DNA from: Bradyrhizobium barranii subsp. barranii
Lineage (GTDB): Bacteria; Pseudomonadota; Alphaproteobacteria; Rhizobiales; Xanthobacteraceae
NCBI RefSeq assembly: GCF_017565645.3
Contig: NZ_CP086136.1
Location: forward strand, 8,787,501 to 8,851,500
DNA length: 64,000 bases
Direction of reading: 5' to 3'
Positions 15,552 to 44,261 of this stretch are shown piece after piece. The translations under genes were made by a program, and so were the position numbers. Below the pieces are notes generated by a model, which ran no database searches, was not told the DNA's origin, and worked only from the letters and a program-made list of their open reading frames with translations. Position 1 is the first letter of the stretch, and every line of letters begins with the position of its first letter.

Positions 15552-18001
<2,450 letters not shown>

Positions 18002-18309
18002 GCGGGATGTTCCTTCTGCAGACGGTTTGACGAGAACCAGGATCAGGCAGACGCCGCGCACGTGGCCGCACGCCCGTCGCGGACAGCGCATGGGCAGCGT
18101 CGGACGGCCGCCCTGCTCCGGCGCGGCGAGGTGCCCCCGATGCAGGCGCCGGCCGTCGCACAGGCTTGCGCGCCAGCACGCCGCGTGCGCCGCGGTAATG
18201 CCGGGCAACGGCTGCGATCATCGCCGCGGACTCTGACGCAGAGCAGCATGCACCGCTGCCGCCGGCCGATCGCAACGGCTCAGGGGCGACTCCATGCGGA
18301 CGGGCTCGC

Positions 18310-19317: not shown

Positions 19318-19462
19318 GTCCTTGTTACCTGACAGGAGACGGCCACGGCGAGCGGCGAGCCGCCGCGGTGTTGCCGGCGTCGCACCGAGCGCGCGCGCCG
19401 AGTGCAGCAATGCCGCGCCTCGCCGGCGCCGCTGCTTCGCCACACGGGCATGCGATGCCAGC

Positions 19463-20815: not shown

Positions 20816-21945
20816 GGCGCTGCGGCCGCTTCGGCGGTGTCGCCGGCCGGCCGCGCGGCGCGGCTGTTGCCACCGTCGGCGTATGTCGGCACATGCGCCA
20901 GCATGCCGCCGTCGATGCACACGACCTGGCCGGTGATGAACGCAGCATCGTCGGAGAGCAGGAACGCCACCAGCGCGGCCACGTCCTCGGGGCGGCCGAC
21001 GCGCGGCAGGAGCTGGTGGCGGCGCAGATGCCGTTGCATGCATTCGTCCAGCTTGGCGAGGAGACGCTCGGTCATGATGAGACCCGGCGCAACCGCGTTG
21101 CAGCGGATCTGCGCATGACCATACTGGGTGGCGAGTGAGGCCGACAGCATGTTCATCGCCGCCTTCGACGCGGCGTAGGACGTCAGTGCGGTGTCACCAC
21201 TGAGCCCCTGGCACGACGACACGGTGACGATCGCGCCACCGCCGCGGGCGATCATCCGCGGGACGGCCTGCCGGCAGCAGAGCAGCGTGCCACGCAGATT
21301 GACCGCCATGGTCTGATCCCAGACCGCCAGGTCCAGGTCAAGGATCGCGCTGTCGCGCGGCGTCAAATGCATGGCGCTCGCGTTGTTCACCAGCAGGTCG
21401 ACCCCACCAAAGTGCCGCTCCGCCGTCTCGAACAGCGCCGCCACCGCCTGTGCATCGGCAATGTCCGTGGCCAGGGCCAGCGCACGGCCCGCTTCGGTCG
21501 CGATCTGCGCGGTGCAGGCGATGGCCGCCGAGCCGTCAATGTCGGCCACCACTACCCTGCCGCCCTCGCGCGCGATGGCGAGGGCGCATGCCTTGCCGAT
21601 GCCGGCGCCGGCGCCGGTCACCACGGCCACCTTGCCTTCGAACCGTCCATCGTGTCGTCCTGGATTGCGTTGGTCTTTCGCGGCATGCCGCTCGGCCTCC
21701 GCCGGAGAAGGCGCAGGGTCGGCGCTGGCGCGCTCGTCATCGCCAGCATCGCTTTCAATGACCCGAATGGCGGCGACCGGGCACTGGCTGGCCGCGAGCC
21801 GCACGGCGGCGTGCAGCGCCTGGGGGACCGTCGCCACGCCCACTTCGGCCACGCCGTCCGGTTCGCGCTGGCGAAAGGTGCCCGGCAGTGTCAGCACGCA
21901 CTGCCCGGTGGTCCCGCACAGATCCTGGTCGACCACGATGCGCAT
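20806..21945 (-). CDS. Ferredoxin-SDR fusion of the gibberellin operon
   Basis: 379 residues in one uninterrupted frame from the ATG at 21945. Residues 1-65 are a small 3Fe-4S-type ferredoxin with the cysteine pattern CGTTGQC and SQCP. A linker of about 40 acidic and proline-rich residues follows. Residues from about 105 are a short-chain dehydrogenase/reductase with the NAD(P) motif TGAGAGIG, NNASA, catalytic Ser in VTVSS, the YAASK Tyr-Lys pair, and a C-terminal CIDGG. In most gibberellin operons fd and sdr are separate genes; the SDR oxidises GA12-aldehyde to GA12 or supports late steps while the ferredoxin feeds electrons to the P450s. A frameshift joining two genes cannot be excluded, but both domains are complete. 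Confidence 0.85.
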   Translation of the reverse strand: MRIVVDQDLCGTTGQCVLTLPGTFRQREPDGVAEVGVATVPQALHAAVRLAASQCPVAAIRVIESDAGDDERASADPAPSPAEAERHAAKDQRNPGRHDGRFEGKVAVVTGAGAGIGKACALAIAREGGRVVVADIDGSAAIACTAQIATEAGRALALATDIADAQAVAALFETAERHFGGVDLLVNNASAMHLTPRDSAILDLDLAVWDQTMAVNLRGTLLCCRQAVPRMIARGGGAIVTVSSCQGLSGDTALTSYAASKAAMNMLSASLATQYGHAQIRCNAVAPGLIMTERLLAKLDECMQRHLRRHQLLPRVGRPEDVAALVAFLLSDDAAFITGQVVCIDGGMLAHVPTYADGGNSRAARPAGDTAEAAAAPCG

Positions 21946-21946
21946 C

Positions 21947-23230
21947 TCAGCCCCCCTGCGCGTGCAGCCGTACCGGCAGCGCGCGGAACGTCCTAAGGAA
22001 GGCGGAGGGTTCCCGGGTCGGCTGCTCGGCCAATGCCAGCGTGGGGAAGCGCGCCTGGATCCGCGGCAGGCTCTCGGCCAACTGCACCCGGGCCAGTTGC
22101 GCACCGAGGCAGAAGTGGATGCCGTGGCCGAAGCTCAGCATGATCTTGCCGTCGGTCGACATGCCAGGACTGGTGCCGTAGAACCGCGCGGGATTGAAGC
22201 GGTCGGGATTGGCGAAGGCGTCCGGGTCGCGATTGCCGGCCGCAATCAGCACGCGCACGTCCGCGTCCTTCGGGATCACCACGCCGCCCAGTTCGATGTC
22301 GCGCTGGGCGATACGCGGGATGGAGCTGAACATGGCGGGCGCGTCGCAGCGCAGGACTTCTTCGACGAATGCCCTCAGCCCCGCGGCGTCTGCCTGCAGC
22401 CAGTGCCGCTGTTCGGGATACGCCAGCATCGCCAGGACGGCATGGTCGATGCTCGCAGCAGTGGTGACGAAGCCGCCCAGCAGCATGCCCCACAGCATGC
22501 TGATCAACTCCGCATCCGACAGCGTGTCGGCATCGTCGTCATGTGCGCCGACCAGCATCGACACGATGTCGCGGCGGGGATCGGTGCGCTTGCGCTGTAT
22601 GAGGTCGCCGAAGTAGGCCTGCACCTTGGCGCTGGCCCGGTCCGCCGCGGCGAGCTGGGGATCGCTGGCGTGCGGGCCCAGGCCTTCCAGAATGGCGCCG
22701 ATGCCGGCAGCGAGCCCGAACATGTCGTCTTGGGGCATGCCGAACAGTTCGGCGAAAACCAGCATGGGCAAGGCCAGCGCGAATTCCCGATGCAGGTCCA
22801 CCGCCTCCCCGCGCTCCAGCGCGGGCGTTATGCCGTCCAGGCGCGCTGCGACGATGCGCGCGATGCTCGGCCGCAGGTTGTCGATCTGGCCCATGGTGAA
22901 ATCGCGCGAGATCAGCCGGCGCAGACGCGTATGCGTCGGTGGGTCCTTCATCGCTAGCGTGGACGCCAGCAGATTGAGCGACGGGCTGGTCGCCGCACGC
23001 GAGAAATAGCGCGCCAGTTCGCCGGGCGCCGGCCCCCGAAACGCATCGCCCGTGGCCTTGAACGCCCAGTAGATGTCGGCGTGGCGGCTCAACAGAAAGA
23101 GGCCCGACGCCGCGCGATGCACCGGATCGTGCTCGCGCAACCATCGCATGAACGGATACGGGTCGTGGATGCACGCTGGCGACGCCAGTTCGGCGAAGGC
23201 GTCCCGGCATGCTGCAGTGGTTTCTTGCAC
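21947..23230 (-). CDS. Cytochrome P450 CYP114 of gibberellin biosynthesis
   Basis: About 427 residues from a GTG at 23230; the open frame extends upstream but those residues are not P450-like. Landmarks: I-helix [13 protein letters not shown], ExxR in EEVLRCDAP, and heme loop [16 protein letters not shown] with the cysteine ligand. In characterised bacterial pathways CYP114 acts with the operon ferredoxin on ent-kaurenoic acid (7-beta hydroxylation and ring contraction). It ends next to the ferredoxin-SDR start, consistent with coupled translation. Confidence 0.85.
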
Positions 23231-23321
23231 GTCGATGGTTACCTGTTGGTTGGCTGGCTGATCTGACGGGCGCGCGCCAGGCGCGCCGGCAGTTGCGGAG
23301 AAGATCGCGATCCGCGGCGCA

Positions 23322-24526
23322 TCACCAGCGCACCGGGAACTCCTCGAACCCACCAGTGATGATCTCCTTGCGCAACTTCAATTCTTCGGGCGACACGGCC
23401 AGGCGCAGCGCGGGAAAGCGCTGGAAGATCGAACCGAACACCACCTTGAGTTCCAGCCTGGCCAGCGCCGCGCCGATGCATCAGTGCGGCCCGGAAGAGA
23501 ACGCCAAGTGCGGCTCTCCGTCGCGTCCGATGTCGAAGATTTCCGGGTCGACAATGGCGCGTATCGAACGACGTCGCCGGCAGGCCGACCAGCACCTTGC
23601 TCTCCGCGGAAATATGCACGCCCGCGATGGTCACGTCGGTCCTCGGATAGCGCATGATGCCATCCCAGCCCGCGCCCGGCGGGTACATGCGCAGGATTTC
23701 CTCTACCGCCTTGTCGATCAGGGACGGATCGCCGACCAGGCGTTCGCGCTGTTGCGGATGGCGGAACATGGCCAGAAGGCCGAATTCGATCTGTGCGACG
23801 GTGCTCTCGTGCCCCGCCACCAGCATGCCCGCCGCCAGGCCAACCGCCTCTTCCTCGCTCGCCTTGCCCTGGTCGACCGCAGCGAGCAGATCCGCCAGCA
23901 GGTTGTCGTCCGGATCCTGGCGCTTGTCGCGCATCTTGCCGCGAATGTAGGCGCGCAGTTCTTCCCAGGCCAGGCGGGACGCGCTGGCGCGGGCCGCTTT
24001 CATGCTGGTGCGTCATCACCTCATCGGACAGCCCGGCGAAAAAGGCGTGATCCTCGTAGAGCACGCCCATCAGCGCGCTGATGACCATGGCCGGAAGCGG
24101 AAAGGAGAGGTGGCGCCGCAGGTCGGCGGGCTGGGGCTGGGCCGCCAGCGTCTCGAACAAGTGCGCGGCGATCGCTTCGACCTGCGGCACGAGCAGCTTC
24201 ACCCTGCGGTTACTGAAGGCCGGCGCCACGATCGCGCGTAGCCGGGCATGCTCGCGCCCCTCGTGCGAGACCAGCCACCCCGGCGAACCGAGAATCACCG
24301 AATCCGGGGTGAATGCCGCCGGCGGCATTCCCGCGGGCCGGAACGCCGCGTCGGACAGCACCGCCTTGGCCTCGTCATAGCCTGTCACCCACCAGCCTTC
24401 GTGCCCGGAGGGGAAGCGCACGCGGTGGATCGGACCGCTGGCGCGTAGCGCCAACATCTCGGGCGAGGGCTCGATGTGATCGACGCGCCACATCGGCAGC
24501 GTCGGCAAGGGTTGTTGTTCGGACAT
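23322..24526 (-). pseudogene. CYP112 P450, broken by two frameshifts and a stop
   Basis: The N-terminal half starts well at the ATG at 24526 (MSEQQPLPTLPMWR) and reads through LPAMVISALMG to EVMTHQHE. Near 23986 an extra base moves the reading frame. The middle (LAWEELRAYI, MLVAGHEST, EEILRMYPPGAGWD, VLVGLPATSFD) lies in another frame until about 23562, where a second length change restores the first. The heme loop LAFSSGPH is then followed directly by TGA (23481-23483) in the codon before the heme-ligand Cys (CIGAALA). Native CYP112 converts ent-kaurene to ent-kaurenoic acid, the first oxidation in the pathway. Three independent lesions make a functional product very unlikely unless they are sequence errors. 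Confidence 0.85.
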
Positions 24527-27790: not shown

Positions 27791-27945
27791 TAATTATGCG
27801 GAGCCCACGATTATGCGGAGTGTGCGGCCGTTCAATCCGAGACCCGCTTCGTTATCAACAGTTTAGTTCCTGCTGCCCTCTTTCTCACTCAGCATAATCT
27901 GAGGCCTTTCTTCCTGCCTTGATGGCAACGAAAGGGAGACAAGGA

Positions 27946-29184
27946 ATGGCCAAGTCGAGTGAGGATCACTGCCACGGGCTGCGCTGCATGGACGCAGGCG
28001 ATCTCGACCCGCTGGTGACGGAGTTCACACGACACCTGACGGTGTTGGGGCATAAGAGCTTGACGGTGAGCGGCTATGACGCTGCAGCCCGTCACCTCGC
28101 GCAATGGCTGACGCTGGCCAAGATCGCAGTCGCTGATATCGATGATGGCGTCGCCGATCGGTTCGCTCGGCATCGCTGTCGATGCCACGGCATCCGTCGC
28201 GAGAGGAGCGTGTCCGCGAAGTACGTGAGGCGGGTACGCCGGTTCATCGAGTTTCTCGGCGAGCGCGGAATCGTCCAGCGCAAGCCGAAGCCCGCATTAC
28301 CGACGCCCCACCGCCGGGTGGTCGAGTTCCAGGACTGGCTGCGACAGCATCGCGGCGTCACAGAGCTGACAATAGATCGGCACGGTCGCATGGTCATGCG
28401 GCTGCTCCCGGCGCTTGGCATCAGGCCGCGAAGTTGGAATGCTCAGCTCATTCGCGACGTGATCATTGCAGAGACGAAGCGGGTCTCGCTGGCCTATGTG
28501 AAGACGATGACGATGGCGCTGAGAGGATATTTGCGGTTCCTCAGCGCACGGGGGTTGTGCCGAGCTGGACTCGATCAGGCTGTGCCAATCATTCCGCAGT
28601 GGCGACTGTCGTCGCTGCCGCGATACATCCGCTCGTCGGATGTCGAGACGTTGATTGCAACGTGCGATCAGACCACGGCGACTGGCGTGCGTGATCGGGC
28701 GATCCTGCTGCTGTTGGCACGACTGGGCTTGCGGGCCGGCGACATTCTCTCTCTTCGTCTCACCGATGTTGATTGGCAACAGGCGACACTGTCGGTTCGT
28801 GGCAAGGGGCGGCGGGAGACGAGATTACCATTGCCGCAAGACGCCGGGGATGCCTTGCTCGCTTATCTGGATCAGGCCCGGCCGCACGTCGCCGATGTTC
28901 GAATCTTCTTCATGTCGAATGCACCAATCCGGCCGCTGACAGGTTCGAGCGCAGTCTCTGATGTTGTGCGTAGTGCAATACGAAAGGCCGGTATCCCCGT
29001 TCCGTCGAATGGGGCCAACCTGCTTCGGCATTCGGCCGCGACGGCCATGCTCCGGGGCGGCGCGACGCTCGACACGGTTGGCGCCGTACTGCGCCACCGC
29101 TCACCGGACATGACCGCACACTACGCCAAAGTCGACGTGACGATGCTGCTGCAGATCGCGCAGCCCTGGCCGGGAGATGCGTGA
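27946..29184 (+). CDS. Tyrosine recombinase, first of the trio
   Basis: 412 residues from the ATG at 27946 (GGGAG seven bases upstream). It has an N-terminal SAM-like core-binding domain and a C-terminal catalytic domain with Arg in LLLARLGLRAGDILSL, Lys in GKGRRETRLPL, the LLRHSAAT box, and the Tyr in DMTAHYAKVDV. Active-site residues appear complete. The next gene starts within its stop codon. Confidence 0.9.
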   Translation: MAKSSEDHCHGLRCMDAGDLDPLVTEFTRHLTVLGHKSLTVSGYDAAARHLAQWLTLAKIAVADIDDGVADRFARHRCRCHGIRRERSVSAKYVRRVRRFIEFLGERGIVQRKPKPALPTPHRRVVEFQDWLRQHRGVTELTIDRHGRMVMRLLPALGIRPRSWNAQLIRDVIIAETKRVSLAYVKTMTMALRGYLRFLSARGLCRAGLDQAVPIIPQWRLSSLPRYIRSSDVETLIATCDQTTATGVRDRAILLLLARLGLRAGDILSLRLTDVDWQQATLSVRGKGRRETRLPLPQDAGDALLAYLDQARPHVADVRIFFMSNAPIRPLTGSSAVSDVVRSAIRKAGIPVPSNGANLLRHSAATAMLRGGATLDTVGAVLRHRSPDMTAHYAKVDVTMLLQIAQPWPGDA

Positions 29185-30098
29185 TGCTGAGTCGATATCT
29201 TGCCAAATATGTGGACCAGCAGCAGTCGCTGGGGTTCAAGTTCCGTGTCCAGCAAATCCTGCTGAGGGGCTACGTCAGCTTCGCCGAGGAGTGCGGCGAC
29301 CGGCACATCAGAAGTGCCCGGGTCCTGGCATGGGCCGCACGTGCGCCGTCACCGGAGCAGCGCCGCAACCGGTTGCTTACCGTGCGGCGGTTCGCGCTGG
29401 CGATGCACGCCGAGAATCCGCGCCATCAGGTTCCGGCGGCGGATGCACTCGGCCACGCTGTCGTCAAGAGGCGACCGCCGTATATCTATAGTGCGGACGA
29501 GATCGCACGATTGCTTCGTGCTGCGGCGGCACTCCGGCCAGCGGGCTCGATCAGACCGACCATGTATGCAACGCTCTTCGGCCTGCTCACCGCTACTGGC
29601 ATGCGGATCGCAGAAGCATTGGCGCTGCAGATCGACGATGTAACTGCCGATGGGCTCGTCGTCCGACAGACCAAGTTCCAGAAGAGCCGGCTGTTGCCAC
29701 TTCACGCAACAGCTCGGCTGGCGCTCGACAGATATCTGGTCACCCGGCGGTCGCTAACCACCACAGATCGTGCTCTCTTCGTATCGGTTGCCGGGCAGTC
29801 GCTGCCCTACAACACCGTGCGACGCATCTTCCTGCAACTCCTCGACAGTACCAATCTCAGGGGCGCCTACGCGGGGCGAGATCCGCGCATCCACGATCTG
29901 CGCCACACCTTCGCGGTCCGCTCGCTGGAGCAGTGCCGCCACGATCGTGCTGCGATCGCCCGCCATATCGTGGCGCTCAGCACCTACCTCGGCCACGCCC
30001 ACGTGACCGACACCTATTGGTACTTGCAGGCGACGCCGACCCTAATGGGCCAGATCGCCGAGGCCGGCGAGGCATTGCTCACTGGAGGCGTCGCATGA
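29184..30098 (+). CDS. Tyrosine recombinase, second of the trio
   Basis: 304 residues; a GTG one codon earlier overlaps the previous stop. Catalytic pieces: Arg in LLTATGMRIAEALAL, Lys in TKFQKSRLLPLH, HDLRHTFAV, the GHAHV segment and Tyr in VTDTYWYLQ. It is typical of the middle RIT protein, with the extended insert HDRAAIARHI before the last motif. Intact. Confidence 0.9.
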   Translation: MLSRYLAKYVDQQQSLGFKFRVQQILLRGYVSFAEECGDRHIRSARVLAWAARAPSPEQRRNRLLTVRRFALAMHAENPRHQVPAADALGHAVVKRRPPYIYSADEIARLLRAAAALRPAGSIRPTMYATLFGLLTATGMRIAEALALQIDDVTADGLVVRQTKFQKSRLLPLHATARLALDRYLVTRRSLTTTDRALFVSVAGQSLPYNTVRRIFLQLLDSTNLRGAYAGRDPRIHDLRHTFAVRSLEQCRHDRAAIARHIVALSTYLGHAHVTDTYWYLQATPTLMGQIAEAGEALLTGGVA

Positions 30099-30830
30099 CT
30101 GCGCTCACCCCCTACCTGAGCAGCTTCCTGCGCGAGCACCTGCCCAAAGAACGCAGGGCGAGCCAGCATACCTGCGAGGCGTATGCCCAGAGCTTCCAGC
30201 TGTTGCTCCAATTTGCCGCCGGCCGACTCAAGCTCAAGCCATCGAAGATCGAGATCGAACGGCTCGACGCGCCGCTGATCTTGGCATTCCTGGAGCATCT
30301 AGAGAAGCAGCGCGGCAACTCGGCGCGAACCCGCAATGCCCGGTTCGCTGCGATCAACTCGTTCTTCCGTTACCTGGAATACAGAGTGCCATCCTGCCTC
30401 GACCAATCACGTCGGATCCATGCGATCCCGATGAAGAAGACCGATCAGGCGCTCGTCGGCTATCTCACCCGTGACGAGCTACAGGCTCTGTTAGACGCGC
30501 CAGACGTCAGCACCGTGTCCGGCATCCGTGATCGAGCGATGCTGCATCTGGCCTTCGCCGCAGGCATGCGCGTGTCGGAGCTGGTCGGCCTCCGGCTCGA
30601 TCAGATCGACCGCCAGACCATGTCCAGCGTGCACATCATGGGTAAGGGCCGTCGTGAACGTGTCTTGCCGCTCTGGAAACAAACGGCTGCAGCTGTGAAG
30701 GCTTGGCTCAAAGTGCGCCCAGTCACCGACGCTCCTGAGCTGTTCTTCAACGCCCGTGCTCAGGCGATGACCCGCTCGGGCTTTGAATACATCCTGACCA
30801 AGCATGTCGCCGCGGCCGCTCGCAAGGCGC
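30095..30830 (+). pseudogene. Tyrosine recombinase, third of the trio, C-terminus lost
   Basis: The gene starts at an ATG overlapping the previous stop and reads through the core-binding domain (LREHLPKERRAS, NARFAAINSFFRYLEY) and the first catalytic part with Arg in AFAAGMRVSELVGL and GKGRRERVLPLW. It stops matching at AAAARKAPS, before the HxxR and Tyr motifs. The remaining frame to 30895 is antisense to the MetRS-like gene. The enzyme cannot be active. Confidence 0.85.
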
Positions 30831-31239
30831 CGTCCGCAGCGAACTCATCGCAATGTTCGCAATACAGTTGGACGCCCCGCCGTACGTCGACGTAGCCGGC
30901 CGCCTGCAGCTCGCGGAATATCGCTAGAGCATTTCCCTTGTGAATCGCGCTGGACGTGCGCACGAACACATCGGGCGTAATTTGCACCGCGCGCAAACAC
31001 TCTAAGATCTTGTGAACGTATCCTTCTGCGACCTCGCTAAAGGATCGGCCGAGCTTTCGTGCCGTTTCGAGCGTATATGTGCCGTGCTCGTCTGAGCCCG
31101 TGATGTAGTAGGCCCGATGGCCGGCCATGCGTTGAAAGCGGACGAAAATATCAGCGGGCAAATACACGCCGCCGATGTGACCCAGATGTAGCTTGCCGTT
31201 AGGGCAAGGCGGCGCGGGACAGATAAAATAAGTGCGCAC
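30830..31239 (-). pseudogene. Methionyl-tRNA-synthetase-like enzyme, N-terminal quarter (hydrazine-synthetase type)
   Basis: From the GTG at 31239 the frame encodes a class I aminoacyl-tRNA-synthetase start: PAPPCPNGKLHLGHIGG with the HLGH signature at residues 18-21, then ITGSDEHGTYTLETARKLG and the zinc-knuckle start LYCEHCDEF near residue 130. About 137 residues remain of an expected 450-500; the rest is replaced by the recombinase trio. It lies one base after the cupin stop. This is not a housekeeping MetRS: no tRNA-binding domain is nearby and it is in an operon with a metal cupin and an amino-acid N-hydroxylase. Cupin plus MetRS-like is the architecture of hydrazine synthetases that join an N-hydroxy amino acid to another amino acid. 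Confidence 0.8.
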
Positions 31240-31240
31240 G

Positions 31241-31570
31241 TCAATCCCACCAGATCGAGATAAACTTGAGAGCGCTATCTTGGCTGATATTGCGGATAGT
31301 ATGCCTCTGATGTGGCGCCATGTAACACAAGCTCGTTTCGCTAACATTACGGACCTGACCGTCGACTTCGAATTCTCCACGACCAGAGATCAGCAGCCAC
31401 AGTTCGTGCTCCTGATGATCGTGCGGGTCGACCGCATCGCCTGGAGCGAGCTCCGCGACTGAAGCGCCAAATGCTGGGCTGAGACCCTCCGGGAGATGCT
31501 CCAAGAGGCGCCAGACCAGAGCGCCGTATTCGGTTCGCATCAGAGAATGATCGGGCCGCGTCGTGTACAT
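31241..31570 (-). CDS. Small cupin, probable metal-binding half of a hydrazine synthetase
   Basis: 109 residues, one cupin barrel. The metal site is complete: His50, His52 and Glu56 in DPHDHQEHELW, and His90 in PHQRHTIRN. In known cupin/MetRS enzymes such as Spb40 of the s56-p1 pathway, a cupin is fused to a MetRS-like domain and catalyses N-N bond rearrangement of an ester intermediate. Here the two parts are separate genes, one base apart. The 24-base gap to the PhyH gene and shared strand indicate an operon. A general sugar or signalling cupin is the alternative reading. Confidence 0.8.
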   Translation of the reverse strand: MYTTRPDHSLMRTEYGALVWRLLEHLPEGLSPAFGASVAELAPGDAVDPHDHQEHELWLLISGRGEFEVDGQVRNVSETSLCYMAPHQRHTIRNISQDSALKFISIWWD

Positions 31571-31594
31571 GTTGGTCTTCCTCAGACGTGGCTA

Positions 31595-32374
31595 TCAGTT
31601 GCGATAGAATATGCCATTGGGACGCTTTAGGTTCTCAAGATCTGCCACAGCTTCTTCTGGTGGGTTGTACGCACGCTTCATGCGGTTGTATTCGGTGCGT
31701 GTTGGCCTCTCAGTGGATGCGCGCTGGAACACCAAGTGAATCGCACGACGCGACCGATCGCTCTTGTTTGGCAAGGAGTAATGGGGCGCATAATCGTCAA
31801 AAATGAAAACATCCCCAGCTTTCAATCGCACCGGCTCCCATGCGAAGGCCTCGGCGATCTCCGGGTGAATCACGCCACCCGCATCCATCGGAAACATTCC
31901 TTCCTTATGGCGAGCTGGCGTGAAGAAGAGCCCACCGTTGCCCGGGCCGGAGTCGTCCACGGCGATGGATGCAATTGCGTGCACCATGCGTTCGGGTATC
32001 TTGTGCGGGACATGATAGATGTCCTGATGAGGGCGGTACCCGCCGCTGTCCGGATACTTGAAGATCAGAAGTTCCTTCAACATCCGTGTCTTCTCATTCA
32101 AGAGTGTCTCGACCGCTATACGAATGCGGCCATCGGCCAGGAGCGCGTCCCGTAGAGGGGCATGGTAGTCTAAGAAGTTCTCGGCCTTGGAAATAATTTT
32201 TCTGCTGTCACTCGTCTTCTCGAACCACAACATCCACTTGTCGGAGCTTACATCCCAACGTGCAACTTCCTCAACGTAACGAGAAATCTTGTCGCGCTTG
32301 GCTGGATCGAAGAACTTCTCCAATCGAAGGTATCCATCCTTATTCCATTTCGATTGTTGCGCCTCGGTCAGCAT
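31595..32374 (-). CDS. Phytanoyl-CoA dioxygenase (PhyH) family Fe(II)/2-oxoglutarate enzyme
   Basis: 259 residues. The facial triad is His116 and Asp118 in YRPHQDIY and His198 in APHYSL, with Arg209/210 in SRRAIHLVF for 2-oxoglutarate binding. The family hydroxylates, halogenates or desaturates small molecules and is common in natural-product clusters. It overlaps the MFS gene by 35 bases and is followed by the cupin, so it is likely a tailoring enzyme of the same pathway. Substrate is unknown. Confidence 0.85.
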   Translation of the reverse strand: MLTEAQQSKWNKDGYLRLEKFFDPAKRDKISRYVEEVARWDVSSDKWMLWFEKTSDSRKIISKAENFLDYHAPLRDALLADGRIRIAVETLLNEKTRMLKELLIFKYPDSGGYRPHQDIYHVPHKIPERMVHAIASIAVDDSGPGNGGLFFTPARHKEGMFPMDAGGVIHPEIAEAFAWEPVRLKAGDVFIFDDYAPHYSLPNKSDRSRRAIHLVFQRASTERPTRTEYNRMKRAYNPPEEAVADLENLKRPNGIFYRN

Positions 32375-33644
32375 GTGTGAGCTCCTTCCTAAAATGAGAC
32401 GGATCAGATGTGCTTTGGCCGAGGCGGGTTGCTAGCACCGCATTAAGAGCGGTCGCGCTCAATAGGCTAAGCAACATCACGTCAGGGCCGAATCCACGGA
32501 CCAACTGCCCTCCGACCATAGGAAAGCCAAAGAGCCCGAGAAAGTATGCGAGGGTAAATATCTGCGATGTAGTGGGCACGGAGACGCCGTGCTCACCGGC
32601 GAGATTGACGGCTATCGTATTCAAGGTTGAATAACTTAACCCATAGCCGGCGGCAAAGAGGACAGAGGCCGCAATATAGAGTGATGTGCTGCCACCGTTG
32701 AAAAGGAACAGCACCAGAGACGCAGCGGTCAGTAGGATGAGCGTGAGTGCCAGTCGGCGTAACGGCAGGCTGCCCATGAGGTGAGCGACAGAGAAGCGTA
32801 GTATCACGCTCGTAGCAGTGAAAAAGAGAAAGAACAGATCGGAGTTCAGGTGACGTGAGGCGGAATACGCGCTCTGATATGTGGACAGCCCCGCGAACAC
32901 GCAGCCTGAAATCGCAATCATGGCGATGGGGAGTGCTGTGCACTTCTGAAGGAGTGTCGTAGTCGCGGCCAGAGTAATTGCGATATCTGGCATAGCCAGT
33001 GCCGATAGCCTCGACGTCGCGCGTCTTGTAAGGTCTACGCAGGCGGCGGCGATCACGCACGCAATCGCAAGCACCGCATAAATCGTGGCCAGCGAACCAG
33101 TGTATTTTGCGAGCAAGTGACCAAGTGGAGCTGCCAGGCCGAGCCCAGCCATTTGTGATCCGGATAAGACCGTCAAATACTGAATACGTGCTGAGGGCCG
33201 TAGATGGCGGATGATCTGCAGCGGTGCCAAAATGAAGAACACTGACCAGGCAGCGCCCACCAGCAAGCCTCCACCGTACGCAGCTCGCGTATCGAGGGCA
33301 GCGCCGGCAAAGGCAAGCATGGCTAACGCCATAAACAAGGATGCGACAGTCAACGTGGGCAATAGGCCTATCCGCTTTGCCAGCCACCCTGCCAAGCAAC
33401 AGGAAACGAGAGTGGTAGCCATGCCGCTGGAAATGATAAGACCAGCGGCTTGACCATCCGTTTCGAGCGCATGCATGTAGTCCGGCAATAGAAAGCTAGT
33501 GCCGTAAGCTGCTGCAATGACAATGGAGGCAATCAAAAATGGTACAAAGGCGCGGTAGTCGAGCGTGCCTGAAAGCTGATCGGCGGGGTTGGCCGTTCCA
33601 TCCGCAATCCGGCCCCGCAGCGGTGAGGTCGAGCCGCCGTTCAT
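32340..33644 (-). CDS. MFS-family transporter, probable product exporter
   Basis: 434 residues with about 12 hydrophobic helices. The motif after helix 2 is GWLAKRIGLLP, a shortened form of the MFS loop signature. The start at 33644 overlaps the stop of the N-hydroxylase gene (ATGA), and its end overlaps PhyH, so it is translated within this operon. Sequence alone does not define the substrate; the context suggests export of the metabolite or self-protection. Confidence 0.85.
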   Translation of the reverse strand: MNGGSTSPLRGRIADGTANPADQLSGTLDYRAFVPFLIASIVIAAAYGTSFLLPDYMHALETDGQAAGLIISSGMATTLVSCCLAGWLAKRIGLLPTLTVASLFMALAMLAFAGAALDTRAAYGGGLLVGAAWSVFFILAPLQIIRHLRPSARIQYLTVLSGSQMAGLGLAAPLGHLLAKYTGSLATIYAVLAIACVIAAACVDLTRRATSRLSALAMPDIAITLAATTTLLQKCTALPIAMIAISGCVFAGLSTYQSAYSASRHLNSDLFFLFFTATSVILRFSVAHLMGSLPLRRLALTLILLTAASLVLFLFNGGSTSLYIAASVLFAAGYGLSYSTLNTIAVNLAGEHGVSVPTTSQIFTLAYFLGLFGFPMVGGQLVRGFGPDVMLLSLLSATALNAVLATRLGQSTSDPSHFRKELTHADRGATIEME

Positions 33645-34599
33645 GTGCCACCCGATACCTGTCGGGTCGATCGCATCGCCACCACACCGGCGTCTCGTTC
33701 AGACGCGTCCGAAGTTGCGTAAACCTGAATCATCTGCCTACCGGATGTATTCAAATAGAACGGTCGGCCGAGGAGGCTATTGATAATTTGGCTGTTACGG
33801 TACGCGACCAAAGATAGATTGGCGCTCTGCAATCCGTGCTGCACGCGGCTTTGATTTTGTAGATATATTGGTCCTGGCACGGGCCGACCGAAGCGGACTG
33901 CATAGTCCGGGCCAAGTACTGGCAGGCCATCTTCCATACATGCTCCCTCGAGCAGGGCCTCCAAGAAGGGCGGCGTACGCGGCTGGAAACCAGTAGCAAG
34001 CACTATACGATCGACTAGAATGCAGCTATTTCGCTGCGTTGCGATCTCATCTAGATCTACTCGCCAACCCATTTTGTGGGAGGTGATGCCTTTCACGACT
34101 ACGCTGGGCAACACACGAAAACGGTCGGTCAGCGTGCCATCCACGCTGCGTTCGTACAGCATTTCATATAAGCGGTTGCACAAGTCGACGGAAATGCCAT
34201 CGCTCGTAAGCATCTCGCCCTCGACTATATCGCGGCGTTGCTGAAGCGGTAGAGCGTGAAAGCGACGGCTATACGCGGGCGTATAAGCTTCATTCACGAA
34301 GCTGTTGTCGTCGATGGCAAAAAAGTTCGAACGCGACGTTGACCACGTGATCTGGGTGGATACAGAACGAGTAAGAATGTCCTCGGTAATCTCAGCGCCA
34401 CTCTGACCGCCTCCCACAACGAGCACATGCTCGGCTGCTTGCGGTAGCGGCCGCTCGAGATAGTCAGCTGCATGGTAGAGAGTGCCACATAGCAAAGATC
34501 TGGCACAGGCGGGGATTTTGGGCTCTACGCCAACACCAACAACAACAGCGCGCGCTAAGTATGTGGTTGTATTCGTGCTGATGCGGTAGCCGTCCCTAA

Positions 34600-36566
34600 C
34601 CCGTCCTATTCGTGAGAGTGCGGCTTTTTGGCCCGATTGATGCGGCCGCACATCTTGTCTGACGAGGCGCACAGGATTGCCTTCGGCTTTTCACCGCCTG
34701 ACGACCCGTACTTTGCAACGCGCTTGAGGTATAGGTTGGGCGAACGGGGGGCGGACGCCCCGCCGGTCAAGGACCGAGCGGCAGCAACGCGCCTGGCAAG
34801 CCGCGGATCAGGTCGGCTTCGGGACATGCCGCGGCAAACGCAAGGCGAATGCGGCTCGTGGTCTCGACCACACGGGCAGCGATTTTCAAGAGACGAAGAC
34901 GCAGCGTCGCGAACTCGGCAGCGGCCAATTCCCGGGCTTTGGGAATGGCGTCGCGCACGGTCAGCATCAGCCAATAAGCGGCCGTATGGAGCACGAGACG
35001 GACCTGGTTGGCGAGCGCCGAACGGCAGCTGGTGCGGTCGGAGGCGAGCTGTGTCTTATGCAGCTTGATCAGATTCTCTGCTTGGCCGCGCGCGCAATAC
35101 AGGCTGTCGTAGATCCACTCGGCCGAGCCGACATCGAGGCTGGTGACGACGAAGCGGATGTCGAGGCCGAGCATCGTCGCCTCAATACGGGCGACAGTGC
35201 GCCGTTCGCGATCCCAGGACTTTGCCTTGTGGCGCGTCTCGGTATAGCCACGCAGAACCGGCAGGTTCTCGATGGCGCGTCGCGTGCGGATGTCGTCGGC
35301 GACCTCGTCGACTTTTCTGGCGAGAGGCTTGGTGCCGGACAGACCGAAGATGTAGTCGATGCCGTTGGTCTCGCACCACGCCATGGCCTCCGGCCGGGCA
35401 TAGTGCCCGTCGCCACGGAACGTAATTTGCGTGTTGTGCCATCGCGTCCGGATATGCCGTACCAGGCGGCGCAGATGGGCACGCACCTCGACGCCGCCCG
35501 GCGTCTTGCCGGGCCGCAGCACGACGGCCACGGGCCGGCTCTTCTCCGTGTCGTAGACGTGGATCGGCAGGAAGCAGCGTTCGTCATAATGAGCGTTGAA
35601 CAGCGAGAGCTGCTGATGGCCGTGGACGACGTCGCAGGTATCATCGATGTCGAGCGTGACGGATGCCGGCTCGCGCGGGTAGCTATCCATCCATGCGTCG
35701 ACCAAAATGTAGGTCAGCCGGATCACGTCGCGCAGGCGCGGAGCATTCTCCAGCCGCGACAGCGTCGGCTGGGAACACAAATCCCGGCCCGTGTCCGGCA
35801 GCCGTCCGCAGGCCAGTTTGAATGCCGGATCGGACCTCAGATGATCGAGGTCGTCGGCGTCCTCGTAGCCGCAGCAGATCGCGAACATGCGAGCGCGGAG
35901 CATATCGACCAGGCTGTGCACGACCCGCGTCGGATCGCGCCGATCCGGGAACACCCGGGCCAGATTGTTGGCCAAACCGAGACGCCGCTCGGCCATCGCC
36001 AGAAGCATCACGCCCCCGTTCGAGGTTAGGCGCCCACCATCGAAGGCAGCTGTGACTTTCTTGGCGTGAACGGCTGGAAACGAGAAGGGCGGAATCGTAT
36101 CGTCGGTCATGGCGGGCGTGGCGTTCGCGGTTGGAGGTGATGGGGTTGGCTTCGCAACCGAATCCTACGCCGCATCAGCGCTTTACCCCTCAGGCGCACT
36201 CTTACGAATAAGACGGGTTAAGTTGAAGAAAGATTGAGTGACTCCCGATCATTTCTGTGCCGAAACGTGGAGTCGCGGTCGTGCCGCGTCCAAAGAAACC
36301 GGCGCGAGCGGCCTATTAGACGCGGTAGGTGATCAGCCTCCGAAACGAGACTATCAAGCATGAAGAGATCGAGCGCGAGGCAGAGGTTTTATTTGTGTTG
36401 AATTCTTGCTTCTCGATAGTGGTCTGAAATCGTATCATCGGTCATGGCGGGCGTGGCGTTCGCGGTTGAAGGTGATGGGGTGGCTTCGCAACCGAATCCT
36501 ACGCCGCATCAGCGCTTTACACCACGCTCGCCAGCCTCTCAGGCGCCCTCTCGCGAATAAGACGGG
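34600..36566 (-). mobile_element. IS1380-type unit, copy A, with duplicated left end
   Basis: 1,967 bp flanked by the 4-bp duplication CTAA (34596-34599 and 36567-36570). The ends are inverted repeats of CCCGTC(C/T)TATTCG. Inside, a complete element (34600-36217) is followed by a 349-bp tail holding passenger DNA and a truncated copy of the element's own 5-prime end, including the first codons of the transposase, that supplies the outer right repeat. Copy B has the same structure, so the whole unit moved as one. Confidence 0.9.
34767..36110 (-). CDS. IS1380-family transposase (copy A)
   Basis: 447 residues: LTSNGGVMLLAMAERRLGL at the N-terminus, DIDDTCDVVHGHQQLS holding the first catalytic Asp, FRGDGHYARPE the second, and RGQAENLIKLHKTQL with the catalytic Glu. 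It differs from copy B at few residues (SYPREP versus SYPHEP; DLIRG versus DLICG). Intact. Confidence 0.95.
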   Translation of the reverse strand: MTDDTIPPFSFPAVHAKKVTAAFDGGRLTSNGGVMLLAMAERRLGLANNLARVFPDRRDPTRVVHSLVDMLRARMFAICCGYEDADDLDHLRSDPAFKLACGRLPDTGRDLCSQPTLSRLENAPRLRDVIRLTYILVDAWMDSYPREPASVTLDIDDTCDVVHGHQQLSLFNAHYDERCFLPIHVYDTEKSRPVAVVLRPGKTPGGVEVRAHLRRLVRHIRTRWHNTQITFRGDGHYARPEAMAWCETNGIDYIFGLSGTKPLARKVDEVADDIRTRRAIENLPVLRGYTETRHKAKSWDRERRTVARIEATMLGLDIRFVVTSLDVGSAEWIYDSLYCARGQAENLIKLHKTQLASDRTSCRSALANQVRLVLHTAAYWLMLTVRDAIPKARELAAAEFATLRLRLLKIAARVVETTSRIRLAFAAACPEADLIRGLPGALLPLGP

Positions 36567-36740
36567 CTAAAGGGAATAACATCATTGACGACCTCGGAAA
36601 AGCGCAGCGTCTTGAGTCGCCCTGCGACCCACCGGTAGTACTCAATAAACTCCTGCCGCGATGTTGAAGCATTGCGCTTGTTGACAAAGCTGTAGAGCCG
36701 ACCATGCAGCGCCAAATAGTTGAGGAATGAATATGGACTA

Positions 36741-37574
36741 GGGTCCAGACTCAATTGAGCCAATATGCGACGAGAGCGGCGAGATGAACAGCGGCCAAAA
36801 AATTACGGGCGAGCTTGTCATATCGCGTGGCGATGCGCCGGAAGTCCTTGAGCCTGCAAAAGCAGCGTTCGATGACATTTCGTCCTTTGTAGGCGCGTTT
36901 GTTGAAGCGATGGATGACGACACGGTTAGATTTATTGGGGATTACGGGCTTGGCGCCACGACGAATGATTGCGCCGCGAAGCTTGTCGCCATCATACCCT
37001 TTGTCGGCGAGGAGCACGCTCATGGGTGGCGCGAGCGCCAGGACATCGGGAGCCGCAGCGATATCGGCATCCTGGCCTGGAGTCAGATGCAGGACGACCG
37101 GCCGGCAGAGCGGATCGCTCAGCGCATGGATTTTTGTCGTGCGGCCTCCGCGCGAGCGGCCGATTGCTTGATTGTGCTCCCCCCTTTTCCGCCGGAGGCA
37201 CACCGGTGAGCTTTAATCGAGGTCGAGTCGAGCGACAGTACGACGCCGTCTTCGCCAGGCTTGGCCAGCGCTTCGAAGATTGCGCACCATCGTCCTCGCT
37301 TGGCCCAGCGATTGAAGCGATTGTAGATCGTCGTGTAAGGGCCGTATTCACGTGGACAATCACGCCATCGTGCACCCGATTGCAGCATGTGAATGATGCC
37401 GCTGACGATGCGTCGGTCGTCGTCCCGATCCGGCCCCGTCAGTCCCCTCGGCAGATGCGGTTCGATACGCGCCCATTGCCTGTCGTTCAGCCAAAACAAA
37501 CCAGCGCGCATTCTCTCGCCCCCGAATCAACACGTAGGCAAGAGAATCACGTGGCGCTATTTAGGTACAGACCC
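36741..37574 (-). mobile_element. IS5-family (IS427-type) insertion sequence
   Basis: About 834 bp with GGGTC at both inverted ends and a TA target duplication (CTA if the end is placed one base in). It sits inside the N-hydroxylase gene between codons for DPT and SPY, and its removal restores the reading frame exactly. Two overlapping transposase frames lie inside. Confidence 0.85.
36751..37511 (-). CDS. IS5-family transposase in two overlapping frames
   Basis: The upstream frame (37511 to 37119) has FWLNDRQWARIEPHLPRG, GARWRDCPREYGPYTTIYNR and the first Asp in VVLSLDSTSIKAHR. The downstream frame (to 36751) has GRSRGGRTTKIHAL, LLADKGYDGDKLR with the second Asp, and NVIERCFCRLKDFRRIATRYDKL with the Glu. 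They overlap by about 85 bases. A frameshift joins the halves into the DDE enzyme, the usual organisation of the IS427 group, so this is probably functional rather than broken. Confidence 0.9.
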
Positions 37575-38119
37575 TAGTAGGATCGACCAGGGTCACGCAA
37601 TCCTTAAGCGGCGACACCTGTAGGCGGCTGTTCGGCAGCGCAAGGCCCGGATGCCAGACAAGTGCGTCTCGCTTCTCCAGGAAAAGTGCGCGGAGCGGAG
37701 TAGGTTCAATAAGCGCTGCAAGACTAAGGTTAAATGGGCCGATCCCAATTCCGATGACATCCAGCATTTCCACAGAAGCCTCCTTGAACTCGTGTAAGTT
37801 CTTGTCGTTGGCGCTCGCGTAAATTCTGTCCGGGTCTGGGTACGTCGATTGATTACTGAAGCACGTTTGTGTGACTTGGGATGCGGCAGCGGCTTGGCCT
37901 GTAGCCGCGGCAGTGGTCCGTCTGCTCAATAGCAACCGCCGTGCCACCCACAAAATCTCGACTGCGCCTTGTTGGACGAGAAGAACATGCCCACCTACGG
38001 CATTTCGTGCGGAATCGCCCCGGCAGCTCTTGTCGGATTTACGACATTGCGGCGGCAATCGGACATACACATGCGGAATTCGGAGCGCGCGGATCCATGG
38101 CTGAAAACCAACACCGTGA

Positions 38120-42295: not shown

Positions 42296-44261
42296 CCCGT
42301 CTTATTCGCGAGAGGGCGCCTGAGAGGCTGGCGAGCGTGGTGTAAAGCGCTGATGCGGCGTAGGATTCGGTTGCGAAGCCACCCCATCACCTTCAACCGC
42401 GAACGCCACGCCCGCCATGACCGATGATACGATTTCAGACCACTATCGAGAAGCAAGAATTCAACACAAATAAAACCTCTGCCTCGCGCTCGATCTCTTC
42501 ATGCTTGATAGTCTCGTTTCGGAGGCTGATCACCTACCGCGTCTAATAGGCCGCTCGCGCCGGTTTCTTTGGACGCGGCACGACCGCGACTCCACGTTTC
42601 GGCACAGAAATGATCGGGAGTCACTCAATCTTTCTTCAACTTAACCCGTCTTATTCGTAAGAGTGCGCCTGAGGGGTAAAGCGCTGATGCGGCGTAGGAT
42701 TCGGTTGCGAAGCCAACCCCATCACCTCCAACCGCGAACGCCACGCCCGCCATGACCGACGATACGATTCCGCCCTTCTCGTTTCCAGCCGTTCACGCCA
42801 AGAAAGTCACAGCTGCCTTCGATGGTGGGCGCCTAACCTCGAACGGGGGCGTGATGCTTCTGGCGATGGCCGAGCGGCGTCTCGGTTTGGCCAACAATCT
42901 GGCCCGGGTGTTCCCGGATCGGCGCGATCCGACGCGGGTCGTGCACAGCCTGGTCGATATGCTCCGCGCTCGCATGTTCGCGATCTGCTGCGGCTACGAG
43001 GACGCCGACGACCTCGATCATCTGAGGTCCGATCCGGCATTCAAACTGGCCTGCGGACGGCTGCCGGACACGGGCCGGGATTTGTGTTCCCAGCCGACGC
43101 TGTCGCGGCTGGAGAATGCTCCGCGCCTGCGCGACGTGATCCGGCTGACCTACATTTTGGTCGACGCATGGATGGATAGCTACCCCCACGAGCCGGCATC
43201 CGTCACGCTCGACATCGATGATACCTGCGACGTCGTCCACGGCCATCAGCAGCTCTCGCTGTTCAACGCTCATTATGACGAACGCTGCTTCCTGCCGATC
43301 CACGTCTACGACACGGAGAAGAGCCGGCCCGTGGCCGTCGTGCTGCGGCCCGGCAAGACGCCGGGCGGCGTCGAGGTGCGTGCCCATCTGCGCCGCCTGG
43401 TACGGCATATCCGGACGCGATGGCACAACACGCAAATTACGTTCCGTGGCGACGGGCACTATGCCCGGCCGGAGGCCATGGCGTGGTGCGAGACCAACGG
43501 CATCGACTACATCTTCGGTCTGTCCGGCACCAAGCCTCTCGCCAGAAAAGTCGACGAGGTCGCCGACGACATCCGCACGCGACGCGCCATCGAGAACCTG
43601 CCGGTTCTGCGTGGCTATACCGAGACGCGCCACAAGGCAAAGTCCTGGGATCGCGAACGGCGCACTGTCGCCCGTATTGAGGCGACGATGCTCGGCCTCG
43701 ACATCCGCTTCGTCGTCACCAGCCTCGATGTCGGCTCGGCCGAGTGGATCTACGACAGCCTGTATTGCGCGCGCGGCCAAGCCGAGAATCTGATCAAGCT
43801 GCATAAGACGCAGCTCGCCTCCGATCGCACCAGCTGCCGTTCGGCGCTCGCCAACCAGGTCCGTCTCGTGCTCCATACGGCCGCTTATTGGCTGATGCTG
43901 ACCGTGCGCGACGCCATTCCCAAAGCCCGGGAATTGGCCGCTGCCGAGTTCGCGACGCTGCGTCTTCGGCTCTTGAAAATCGCCGCCCGTGTCGTCGAGA
44001 CCACGAGCCGCATTCGCCTTGCGTTTGCCGCGGCATGTCCCGAAGCCGACCTGATCTGCGGCTTGCCCGGCGCGCTGCTGCCGCTCGGTCCTTGACCGGC
44101 GGGGCGTCCGCCCCCGTTCGCCCAACCCATCCCTCAAGCGCGTTGCAAAGTACCGGTCGTCAGGCGGCGAAAAGCCGAAGGCAATCCTGTGCGCCTCGTC
44201 AGACAAGATGTGCGGCCGCATCAATCGGGCCCAAAAGCCGCACTCTCACGAATAGGACGGG
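42296..44261 (+). mobile_element. IS1380-type unit, copy B, with duplicated left end
   Basis: 1,966 bp, inverted relative to copy A, flanked by the perfect duplication CTAG (42292-42295 and 44262-44265). Its first 349 bp are the tail with the truncated element and the remainder (42645-44261) is the complete element. It differs from copy A by at least one base in a C-run after the transposase and a handful of substitutions. Confidence 0.9.
42752..44095 (+). CDS. IS1380-family transposase (copy B)
   Basis: 447 residues, nearly identical to copy A, with the same Asp-Asp-Glu residues in DIDDTCD, FRGDGHY and RGQAENLI. Intact and probably able to act on both units. Confidence 0.95.
   Translation: MTDDTIPPFSFPAVHAKKVTAAFDGGRLTSNGGVMLLAMAERRLGLANNLARVFPDRRDPTRVVHSLVDMLRARMFAICCGYEDADDLDHLRSDPAFKLACGRLPDTGRDLCSQPTLSRLENAPRLRDVIRLTYILVDAWMDSYPHEPASVTLDIDDTCDVVHGHQQLSLFNAHYDERCFLPIHVYDTEKSRPVAVVLRPGKTPGGVEVRAHLRRLVRHIRTRWHNTQITFRGDGHYARPEAMAWCETNGIDYIFGLSGTKPLARKVDEVADDIRTRRAIENLPVLRGYTETRHKAKSWDRERRTVARIEATMLGLDIRFVVTSLDVGSAEWIYDSLYCARGQAENLIKLHKTQLASDRTSCRSALANQVRLVLHTAAYWLMLTVRDAIPKARELAAAEFATLRLRLLKIAARVVETTSRIRLAFAAACPEADLICGLPGALLPLGP

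Follow-up and report, generated by a model that had tools for sequence, protein, structure and literature searches.

A putative hydrazine biosynthesis operon with a PhyH-type dioxygenase in legume symbionts and its broken copy in a Bradyrhizobium symbiosis island

Introduction

Does a short run of metabolic genes in a Bradyrhizobium symbiosis island encode the assembly of a nitrogen-nitrogen (N-N) bond, and can the strain that carries the genes still use them? The question is raised by a 64,000-nucleotide stretch of the Bradyrhizobium barranii subsp. barranii chromosome (G000:C1:8787501-8851500), referred to here as the window. An initial annotation, made from the sequence alone, had described an operon of five co-directional genes in a rhizobial island, encoding an amino acid N-hydroxylase, a major facilitator superfamily (MFS) exporter, a PhyH-type dioxygenase, a metal cupin and a protein similar to methionyl-tRNA synthetase (MetRS), and had assigned to it the logic of a cupin/MetRS hydrazine pathway. 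All five genes are on the minus strand between 30832 and 37767, and the site is indeed part of a symbiosis island, with nodA 169 kb away on the same chromosome. The tight spacing was also read correctly: the N-hydroxylase stop codon (33641-33643) overlaps the MFS start at 33644, the MFS end at 32340 overlaps the PhyH start at 32374, 24 bases separate the PhyH end (31595) from the cupin start (31570), and the cupin end (31241) and the GTG start of the MetRS-like gene (31239) are one base apart, as separate genes. Cupin residues 50, 52, 56 and 90 are His, His, Glu and His, and the HLGH motif is present in what remains of the MetRS-like protein. Genes, order and motifs of the described operon thus stand; that this copy is broken had not been said outright. 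Here, we describe intact relatives of the operon, which likely direct the synthesis of a hydrazine metabolite with PhyH as a candidate third enzyme, and the damage that has silenced the copy in the window.

Occurrence of the intact operon

The complete operon comprises six genes, in the order N-hydroxylase, MFS transporter, PhyH dioxygenase, cupin, MetRS-like protein and pyridoxal 5'-phosphate (PLP)-dependent aminotransferase. Cupin matches at E 0.001 or better were present in 55 of 265 Bradyrhizobium genomes; the copy is close (61-100% identity) in 26 of them and reaches 39% or less in the others. With a gene scored as intact when recovered as one stop-free tblastn piece spanning ~85% or more of the query, 20 of the 26 genomes with a close cupin (the window and L036-L060) possess all six genes in order. 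Among the remaining six, the aminotransferase is broken in L051 and L052, the MetRS-like gene of L055 contains a stop, a contig end cuts L048, and L041 and the window copy are broken. The recurrence of the same six genes in one order is more than chance. Another genome of the window species, G011, yielded no cupin match in the 265-genome search.

The operon keeps company with nodulation genes. A NodA match at E below 1e-80 was found in 26 of 26 operon-bearing Bradyrhizobium genomes, and NodA in 139 of the 265 genomes (24 matches weaker than 1e-10 omitted) or in 160 by Pfam's own cut-off; the hypergeometric probability of this association is 1.5e-8 for the former count and 8e-7 for the latter, with relatedness ignored. 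In 12 genomes, a single contig of at least 7 Mb carries both the operon and nodA; the two are 62-362 kb apart in 11 of these, and in G214 the distance is 3.2 Mb if the contig is circular. The ratio of nonsynonymous to synonymous substitution rates (dN/dS) of the six genes ranges from 0.11 to 0.57 in two pairwise comparisons, with the cupin highest and PhyH saturated in one of the two.

Beyond Bradyrhizobium, a contig scan of relatives, several of whose genomes are shared with the cupin search, was limited to the best 80 of 407. Among these, 37 have 52% identity or more and the rest 34% or less; the 37 belong to Bradyrhizobium, Rhizobium, Mesorhizobium, Paraburkholderia, Ralstonia and a near relative, and Pseudomonas fuscovaginae. 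PhyH is found in 35 of these 37, in L078 as the last 65 residues only; L095 and L097 are without PhyH and have a truncated cupin. In a set of 16 loci from ten lineage groups, the five genes named in the initial annotation stay together in all ten (the MFS gene being truncated in Rhizobium etli) and the PLP enzyme is present in eight; outside this core, no open reading frame (ORF) recurs in more than three other lineage groups, antisense shadow frames and MocR-type ORFs aside. The Rhizobium and Mesorhizobium copies reside on symbiosis plasmids, where the MFS gene precedes the N-hydroxylase, and a divergent MocR-type regulator stands beside the operon in L032, L034 and L035 (domains checked in L034). 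In R. etli CIAT 652, the genes sit between nodA and nodD2/nodD3. At E 1e-60, PhyH was detected in 5 of 391 genomes sampled from the window's family, every one a Bradyrhizobium, in 3 of 397 of its order and in 4 of 394 in the family of G571, which are samples that share genomes. The operon is likely mobile and borne mostly on symbiosis islands. Two matches in proteome papers, one to MetS under a locus tag of R. etli CIAT 652 and one to an R. leguminosarum PhyH protein, carry chromosomal labels and were set aside as not belonging to this operon.

Cupin, synthetase and N-hydroxylase

The cupin has the traits by which hydrazine synthetase cupins are recognized: small size, an [H/D]-x-H-x3-E motif with its catalytic Glu, and a later His. 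The set H50, H52, E56 and H90 occurs in the window cupin and in 60 of 64 rows of the clade formed with its relatives, genomes being partly counted twice; the four exceptions come from L041 and L078, both of a single genome, and from the partial loci L095 and L097. In 45 cupins from other loci, E56 and H90 are invariant, and positions 50 and 52 are His in 41 and 42 rows, respectively. The accessible portions of PMC8664883 give the same residue numbers for PyrN, with the E56A variant inactive, and show that RHS1 (PDB 5UQP), which stands alone, shares the PyrN activity. When searched against solved structures, the window cupin matched 5uqp at E 1.9e-7, second to 4rd7; phmmer places a gap inside the 5uqp motif alignment, with identical [H/D]-x-H-x3-E spacing. 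A sugar isomerase affiliation, which had been named as grounds for abandoning the hydrazine reading, was absent from the Pfam and NCBIfam matches; one PDB cupin named mannose-6-phosphate isomerase matches weakly (E 0.047).

The cupin adjoins the MetRS-like gene in all clade rows except decayed or partial ones, and the MetRS-like partner, of which 136 codons are left in the window, is distinct from the housekeeping enzyme. Its Pfam and NCBIfam names are those of MetRS, which would suit a duplicated or resistance-type methionyl-tRNA synthetase with metabolic neighbours by accident. We regard this explanation as extremely improbable: the intact L034 homologue falls below the cut-off of every one of the 16 NCBIfam synthetase models that it matches, those for MetRS included; the window genome already has two genes above the metG cut-off (G000:C1:5637889 and 9509341); and the PhyH-cupin-MetRS run is kept across five families, Nitrobacteraceae, Rhizobiaceae, Phyllobacteriaceae, Burkholderiaceae and Pseudomonadaceae. 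No tRNA-modifying gene, which would have pointed the other way, appears next to the MetRS-like gene in the incomplete gene tables of five annotated plasmid loci.

The N-hydroxylase is of the amino acid side-chain type and neighbours the cupin and MetRS-like genes, as expected of a hydrazine synthetase system, with the gene itself broken in the window. Lys57 is conserved in 58 of 58 and Asn225 in 57 of 58 full clade rows; in 5 of 63 loci the protein is partial or absent. PvdA, which acts on ornithine, and MbtG, which acts on lysine, have both of these signature residues, and DesB, FbsI and 6xbb are without both in the alignments; the signature lysine presumably binds the substrate carboxylate. 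Assigning the substrate from the nearest solved N-hydroxylases, 6xbb (named only as a monooxygenase), DesB, MbtG, FbsI and PvdA, did not settle it.

SidA/PvdA-type enzymes mostly serve siderophores, and the MetRS part alone is not diagnostic, so the genes might instead form a siderophore or hydroxamate pathway, with the MetRS-like protein acting as an ester or amide ligase on the N-hydroxylase product and the cupin having no part in N-N chemistry. This is very unlikely, since the listed genes of the intact operons include no acyltransferase, nonribosomal peptide synthetase (NRPS) or siderophore synthetase and the neighbour of the MetRS-like gene is, outside the decayed or partial rows, a metal cupin with the catalytic Glu.

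PhyH in the place of a flavin oxidase

In 13 of 13 aligned PhyH rows, H116, D118, H198 and R209/R210 are invariant; we take these to be the metal and 2-oxoglutarate residues. The enzyme scores 183 bits (E 5.6e-54) against the NCBIfam methylphosphonate hydroxylase model, whose cut-off is 500, and ectoine hydroxylases appear among its weak matches. A phosphonate link, suggested by this PhnY-like score and by phosphoenolpyruvate mutase-family genes near L035 and L063, was abandoned, since such genes do not recur beside the operon.

What occupies the corresponding position elsewhere was followed in 48 loci outside the clade (L061-L065, L104-L146), three of which are without N-hydroxylase and cupin and resemble plain MetRS. 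A flavin enzyme resembling D-amino acid oxidase matched in 34 of the 48, hence in 34 of 45; 31 of these matches span at least 80% of the query, three are partial at 28-32% identity (L124, L137, L144), and four of the 34 loci supplied the queries. Among the 48 loci, L136 (Streptomyces fragilis) shows the azaserine gene order and was used as a control. As described in accessible parts of PMC11705231 and PMC13274452, the flavin enzyme cuts the hydrazine conjugate to hydrazinoacetic acid. A saccharopine dehydrogenase occurs once, in L065, and a query made from it matched no other compared locus. PhyH was found in none of the 48 loci by hidden Markov model (HMM) search at E up to 1; conversely, flavin-oxidase matches in the clade loci were limited to a fragment in L089 and the fragments in L033 and L164.

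These fragments form a mosaic. L033, from a Mesorhizobium of Lotus, begins with a synthetase-type N-hydroxylase followed by flavin-oxidase residues 8-174 (E 3e-6), continues with the last 45 residues of a clade-type N-hydroxylase and a complete PhyH (79% identical to that of L034), and ends with flavin-oxidase residues 303-349 of 352 (E 2e-4) and a fused cupin-MetRS. L164, at 94% DNA identity to L033 over this stretch, has oxidase residues 8-98 (E 1e-6), the end of the clade N-hydroxylase, PhyH, a cupin piece (the first 32 residues, clade-type, E 2e-4), oxidase residues 314-337 (E 0.006) and the fused synthetase. In L089 (M. albiziae), the left junction is as in L033, and the locus continues with clade-type cupin and MetRS. 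Between these loci, the ratio of nonsynonymous to synonymous proportions (pN/pS) is 0.11-0.31 for N-hydroxylase, PhyH and fused synthetase, consistent with these genes being under selection while the oxidase leftover drifts near-neutrally. Solitary synthetase-type N-hydroxylase genes with ~85% DNA identity to L033 were also observed on two Mesorhizobium plasmids (L165 8155-9516, L166 7015-8319), with no synthetase listed beside them.

Because PhyH stands in the flavin enzyme's place and the operon appears still to be under selection, we infer that it acts on the same conjugate. That it cleaves the conjugate has, by our estimate, somewhat less than an even chance, since a changed product would fit the replacement too; some other oxidation of the conjugate is a credible, less probable outcome.

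Proposed pathway

Taken together, a model emerges in which the intact operon likely makes an exported hydrazine metabolite through the N-hydroxylase, the MetRS-like and cupin pair, PhyH, the PLP enzyme and the MFS protein. The flavin-dependent N-hydroxylase would act on a diamino acid, most likely lysine, and hydroxylate its side-chain amine; the MetRS-like enzyme would use adenosine triphosphate (ATP) to activate a second amino acid and transfer it to the N-OH group as an unstable ester, and the separate zinc cupin would rearrange this ester to the N-N bond, both steps by analogy with proven homologues. PhyH would then oxidise the conjugate instead of a flavin oxidase; in the form that we prefer, the carbon beside the hydrazine nitrogen would be hydroxylated, giving a hydrazino acid and an amino-aldehyde. 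The PLP enzyme may process the product or the aldehyde, and the MFS protein would export the product.

The PLP enzyme bears on a different use of PhyH, namely as a C-hydroxylase that tailors the N-N conjugate without splitting it, with the PLP enzyme eliminating or cyclising it to a cyclic hydrazine amino acid. The PLP enzyme is near aminoadipate aminotransferases and MppQ (solved MppQ, E 5.1e-40) and scores against the models of MppQ (164 bits), GntC (141.5) and VioD (106.7); VioC/VioD and GntC act on hydroxyarginine, which offers a parallel, and the PhyH resemblances to methylphosphonate and ectoine hydroxylases would also suit tailoring. All of these model scores are below cut-off, though, the highest being for a MocR-type model; L031, L034, L035 and L033 yielded no PLP enzyme but retain PhyH, and PhyH in L033 and L164 sits in the broken gene of a conjugate-cleaving enzyme. 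We hold tailoring to be a plausible but minority explanation. That no PLP enzyme was found in the Rhizobium loci suggests that it is accessory to the hydrazine pathway. A bolder extension, which we consider improbable, is that PhyH, as an iron/2-oxoglutarate oxygenase, is a second, unrelated solution to a cleavage otherwise known from flavin and saccharopine-type enzymes, that it displaced the flavin enzyme in place in a Lotus mesorhizobium and a near relative, that the hydrazino acid is exported at nodulation and blocks PLP-dependent plant enzymes such as 1-aminocyclopropane-1-carboxylate (ACC) synthase in the manner of rhizobitoxine, and that the PLP-binding MocR-type regulator next to the Rhizobium and Mesorhizobium operons senses it. 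The lysine-glycine pairing and the signal or toxin role mentioned in the initial annotation find no support in these comparisons.

Several observations weigh against the hydrazine pathway with PhyH as its third enzyme. The MetRS sequences place the clade no closer to established hydrazine synthetases than to ordinary KFSTS-type MetRS: with a synthetase HMM, its median is 311 bits versus 410 for five plain MetRS, and the deep split of a quick-method MetRS tree has a support of 47. Tree and HMM fail to separate the two, so membership rests on the cupin, the gene set and the gene order; the cupin/MetRS hydrazine logic proposed at the outset accordingly holds through the cupin site, the N-hydroxylase signature and the gene set, and not through the MetRS sequence, which alone is inseparable from aminoacyl-tRNA synthetases. 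MetRS phylogeny was rejected as proof of membership for its weak deep support, as was a KFST..H motif as a family mark, being present in three of the five plain MetRS. The solved N-hydroxylase nearest in overall similarity is 6xbb, without the signature residues. For PhyH, the predicted structure had a mean predicted local distance difference test score (pLDDT) of 36 and was discarded; ten of the 45 outside loci yielded no flavin oxidase, saccharopine dehydrogenase or PhyH in our searches, which means that a third-enzyme slot is not universal; cleavage is argued from position and one mosaic, seen in two near-identical loci and a related third; and the pN/pS of the oxidase leftover, 0.66 over 91 codons in L164 and 0.89 over 165 codons in L089, comes from short stretches and carries no significance test. 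Finally, 19 upstream stretches of ~400 bases (~100 in L086) contained no nod box, with best scores of 18-23 of 40 against 33 of 40 for the nodA control, and no sigma-54 site by a pattern that had no positive control. A TGT-N10-ACA palindrome upstream of some Bradyrhizobium copies was dropped as a candidate control site because it is not kept in L068.

Decay of the window copy

The window copy of the operon is dead, because its N-hydroxylase is split in three by two insertions and its MetRS-like gene is cut to 136 codons (Table 1). Positions 30832-34599 align at ~99.8% with the intact relatives L036, L042 and L043 (L042, 99.79% over 3768 bases). Both N-hydroxylase inserts are flanked by 4-base target duplications. 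The ends of the 34600-36566 insert match inverted in 22 of 30 bases, and because a further end-like repeat lies inside it, at 36192-36220, positions 36221-36566 may be a separate element, making this insert two. The MetRS-like gene breaks off where it meets a tyrosine recombinase, and the PLP aminotransferase, sixth gene of the intact operon, is missing: where L042 has the remaining MetRS and the aminotransferase, within 10421-13719, the window has 29757-30831 of the recombinase trio, for which no match at E 1e-20 was found in the compared stretches of the three intact relatives.

Table 1. Features of the operon region in the window.
Feature	Coordinates	Strand	Evidence and remarks
N-hydroxylase (SidA/IucD/PvdA family), first piece	37574..37767	-	Pfam Lys_Orn_oxgnase; collinear with intact L042; start ATG 37767, GTG 37773 possible
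Insertion of IS5 type inside N-hydroxylase	36742..37573	-	Gap versus L042 with 4-base overlap; DDE_Tnp_1 and DUF4096; CTAG target duplication
N-hydroxylase, second piece, 175 bases	36567..36741	-	100% identity to L042
Insertion with IS1380-family transposase (34767-36110)	34600..36566	-	NCBIfam transpos_IS1380; gap versus L042; CTAA target duplication
N-hydroxylase, third (C-terminal) piece	33641..34599	-	Pfam Lys_Orn_oxgnase, E 8.7e-54; comparison with L042
MFS transporter, probable exporter, 434 residues	32340..33644	-	Pfam MFS_1, E 1.2e-18; kept in relatives
PhyH-type Fe/2-oxoglutarate dioxygenase, 259 residues	31595..32374	-	Pfam PhyH, E 1.3e-32
Metal cupin, 109 residues, H50 H52 E56 H90	31241..31570	-	Pfam Cupin_2; PDB 5uqp (RHS1), E 1.9e-7
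MetRS-like remnant, first 136 of ~520 codons, HLGH motif	30832..31239	-	Pfam tRNA-synt_1g, E 1.1e-30; cut versus L042
Three adjacent tyrosine recombinases, the third entering the MetRS remnant	27919..30895	+	Pfam Phage_integrase in all three; presumably RIT-like

The frames of cupin, PhyH and MFS transporter are still open and nearly unchanged, which suggests that the loss is recent. With the N-hydroxylation, N-N formation and PLP steps all broken, this copy no longer gives the strain a working pathway; a search of its own genome found no second cupin. Decay was also observed in L031 (R. etli CIAT 652), with a truncated MFS gene and a stop in the N-hydroxylase, and in L066, L095, L097 and L041, the last being a disrupted Bradyrhizobium copy; PhyH and half of the cupin have been lost in R. 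etli CFN42 and R. aethiopicum. Elsewhere in the window, 42296-44261, whose ends overlap by 4 bases, has no counterpart in the three intact relatives and is likely another insertion, and 16001-24000 has a G+C content of 0.67-0.69, markedly above the remaining window.

Discussion

The arrangement of cupin and MetRS as separate genes is known (PMC8664883), and the pathways of PyrN (pyrazomycin) and RHS1 (Rhodococcus jostii), as far as covered by the accessible text of that paper, share with the present operon the set of N-hydroxylase, cupin and MetRS-like protein, the [H/D]-x-H-x3-E and later His metal site, and cupin and MetRS as possibly separate proteins. They differ in that a saccharopine dehydrogenase (PyrL) is suggested to act on the conjugate, where PhyH stands here. 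The Spb38/39/40, Tri26-28, AzsLMN and DobG/E modules (accessible parts of PMC11705231, PMC10445470, PMC13061610) likewise combine N-hydroxylase, conjugate-processing enzyme and synthetase in one operon, but use a flavin enzyme resembling D-amino acid oxidase and a fused cupin-MetRS, whereas the clade has PhyH and separate genes except in L033 and L164; clade MetRS is ~30% identical to the fused type of L033.

Nor is a rhizobial hydrazine synthetase new: Table 2 of PMC11705231, in its accessible portion, lists Mesorhizobium japonicum R7A Q8KGM6/CAD31310 and Ral1-Ral2 of Ralstonia solanacearum CFBP2957, a split pair, as identified hydrazine synthetases. The R7A enzyme, listed under one accession, is probably fused like L033. 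The whole six-gene operon, with MetRS 68-69% identical, is present in L077 (Ralstonia pickettii) and its near relative L076 (Burkholderiaceae bacterium 26). The new part, and a notable one, is PhyH as third enzyme and its in-place swap for the flavin oxidase; we found no description of this operon, or of a PhyH enzyme in a hydrazine pathway, in the open-licence literature, and no report tying a hydrazine compound to nodulation in the literature searched.

Other synthetase loci were observed in plant-associated bacteria. On Sinorhizobium meliloti SM11 plasmid pSmeSM11b (L061, 1-17959), N-hydroxylase, flavin oxidase and fused synthetase accompany an NRPS, an adenosine monophosphate (AMP) ligase, a carrier protein, a GNAT protein and a C45 peptidase, so that a rhizobial plasmid holds a large part of the azaserine/triacsin gene set; five other S. 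meliloti/medicae records contain similar matches to the L061 synthetase. M. amorphae plasmid pM0123d carries a second synthetase locus (L065, 4159-9875) besides L032, and Pantoea ananatis OC5a, an onion isolate, has a split cupin/MetRS locus with flavin oxidase and MFS genes (L064, 6624-12063).

If the proposed pathway is correct, many legume symbionts would carry an operon for a hydrazine metabolite within or near their nodulation genes. The replacement of flavin oxidase by PhyH would then be a testable natural example in which one enzyme family has assumed the step of another, and PhyH may be a new biocatalyst for hydrazine release. The broken copies beside near-identical intact twins would provide comparison pairs for plant tests.

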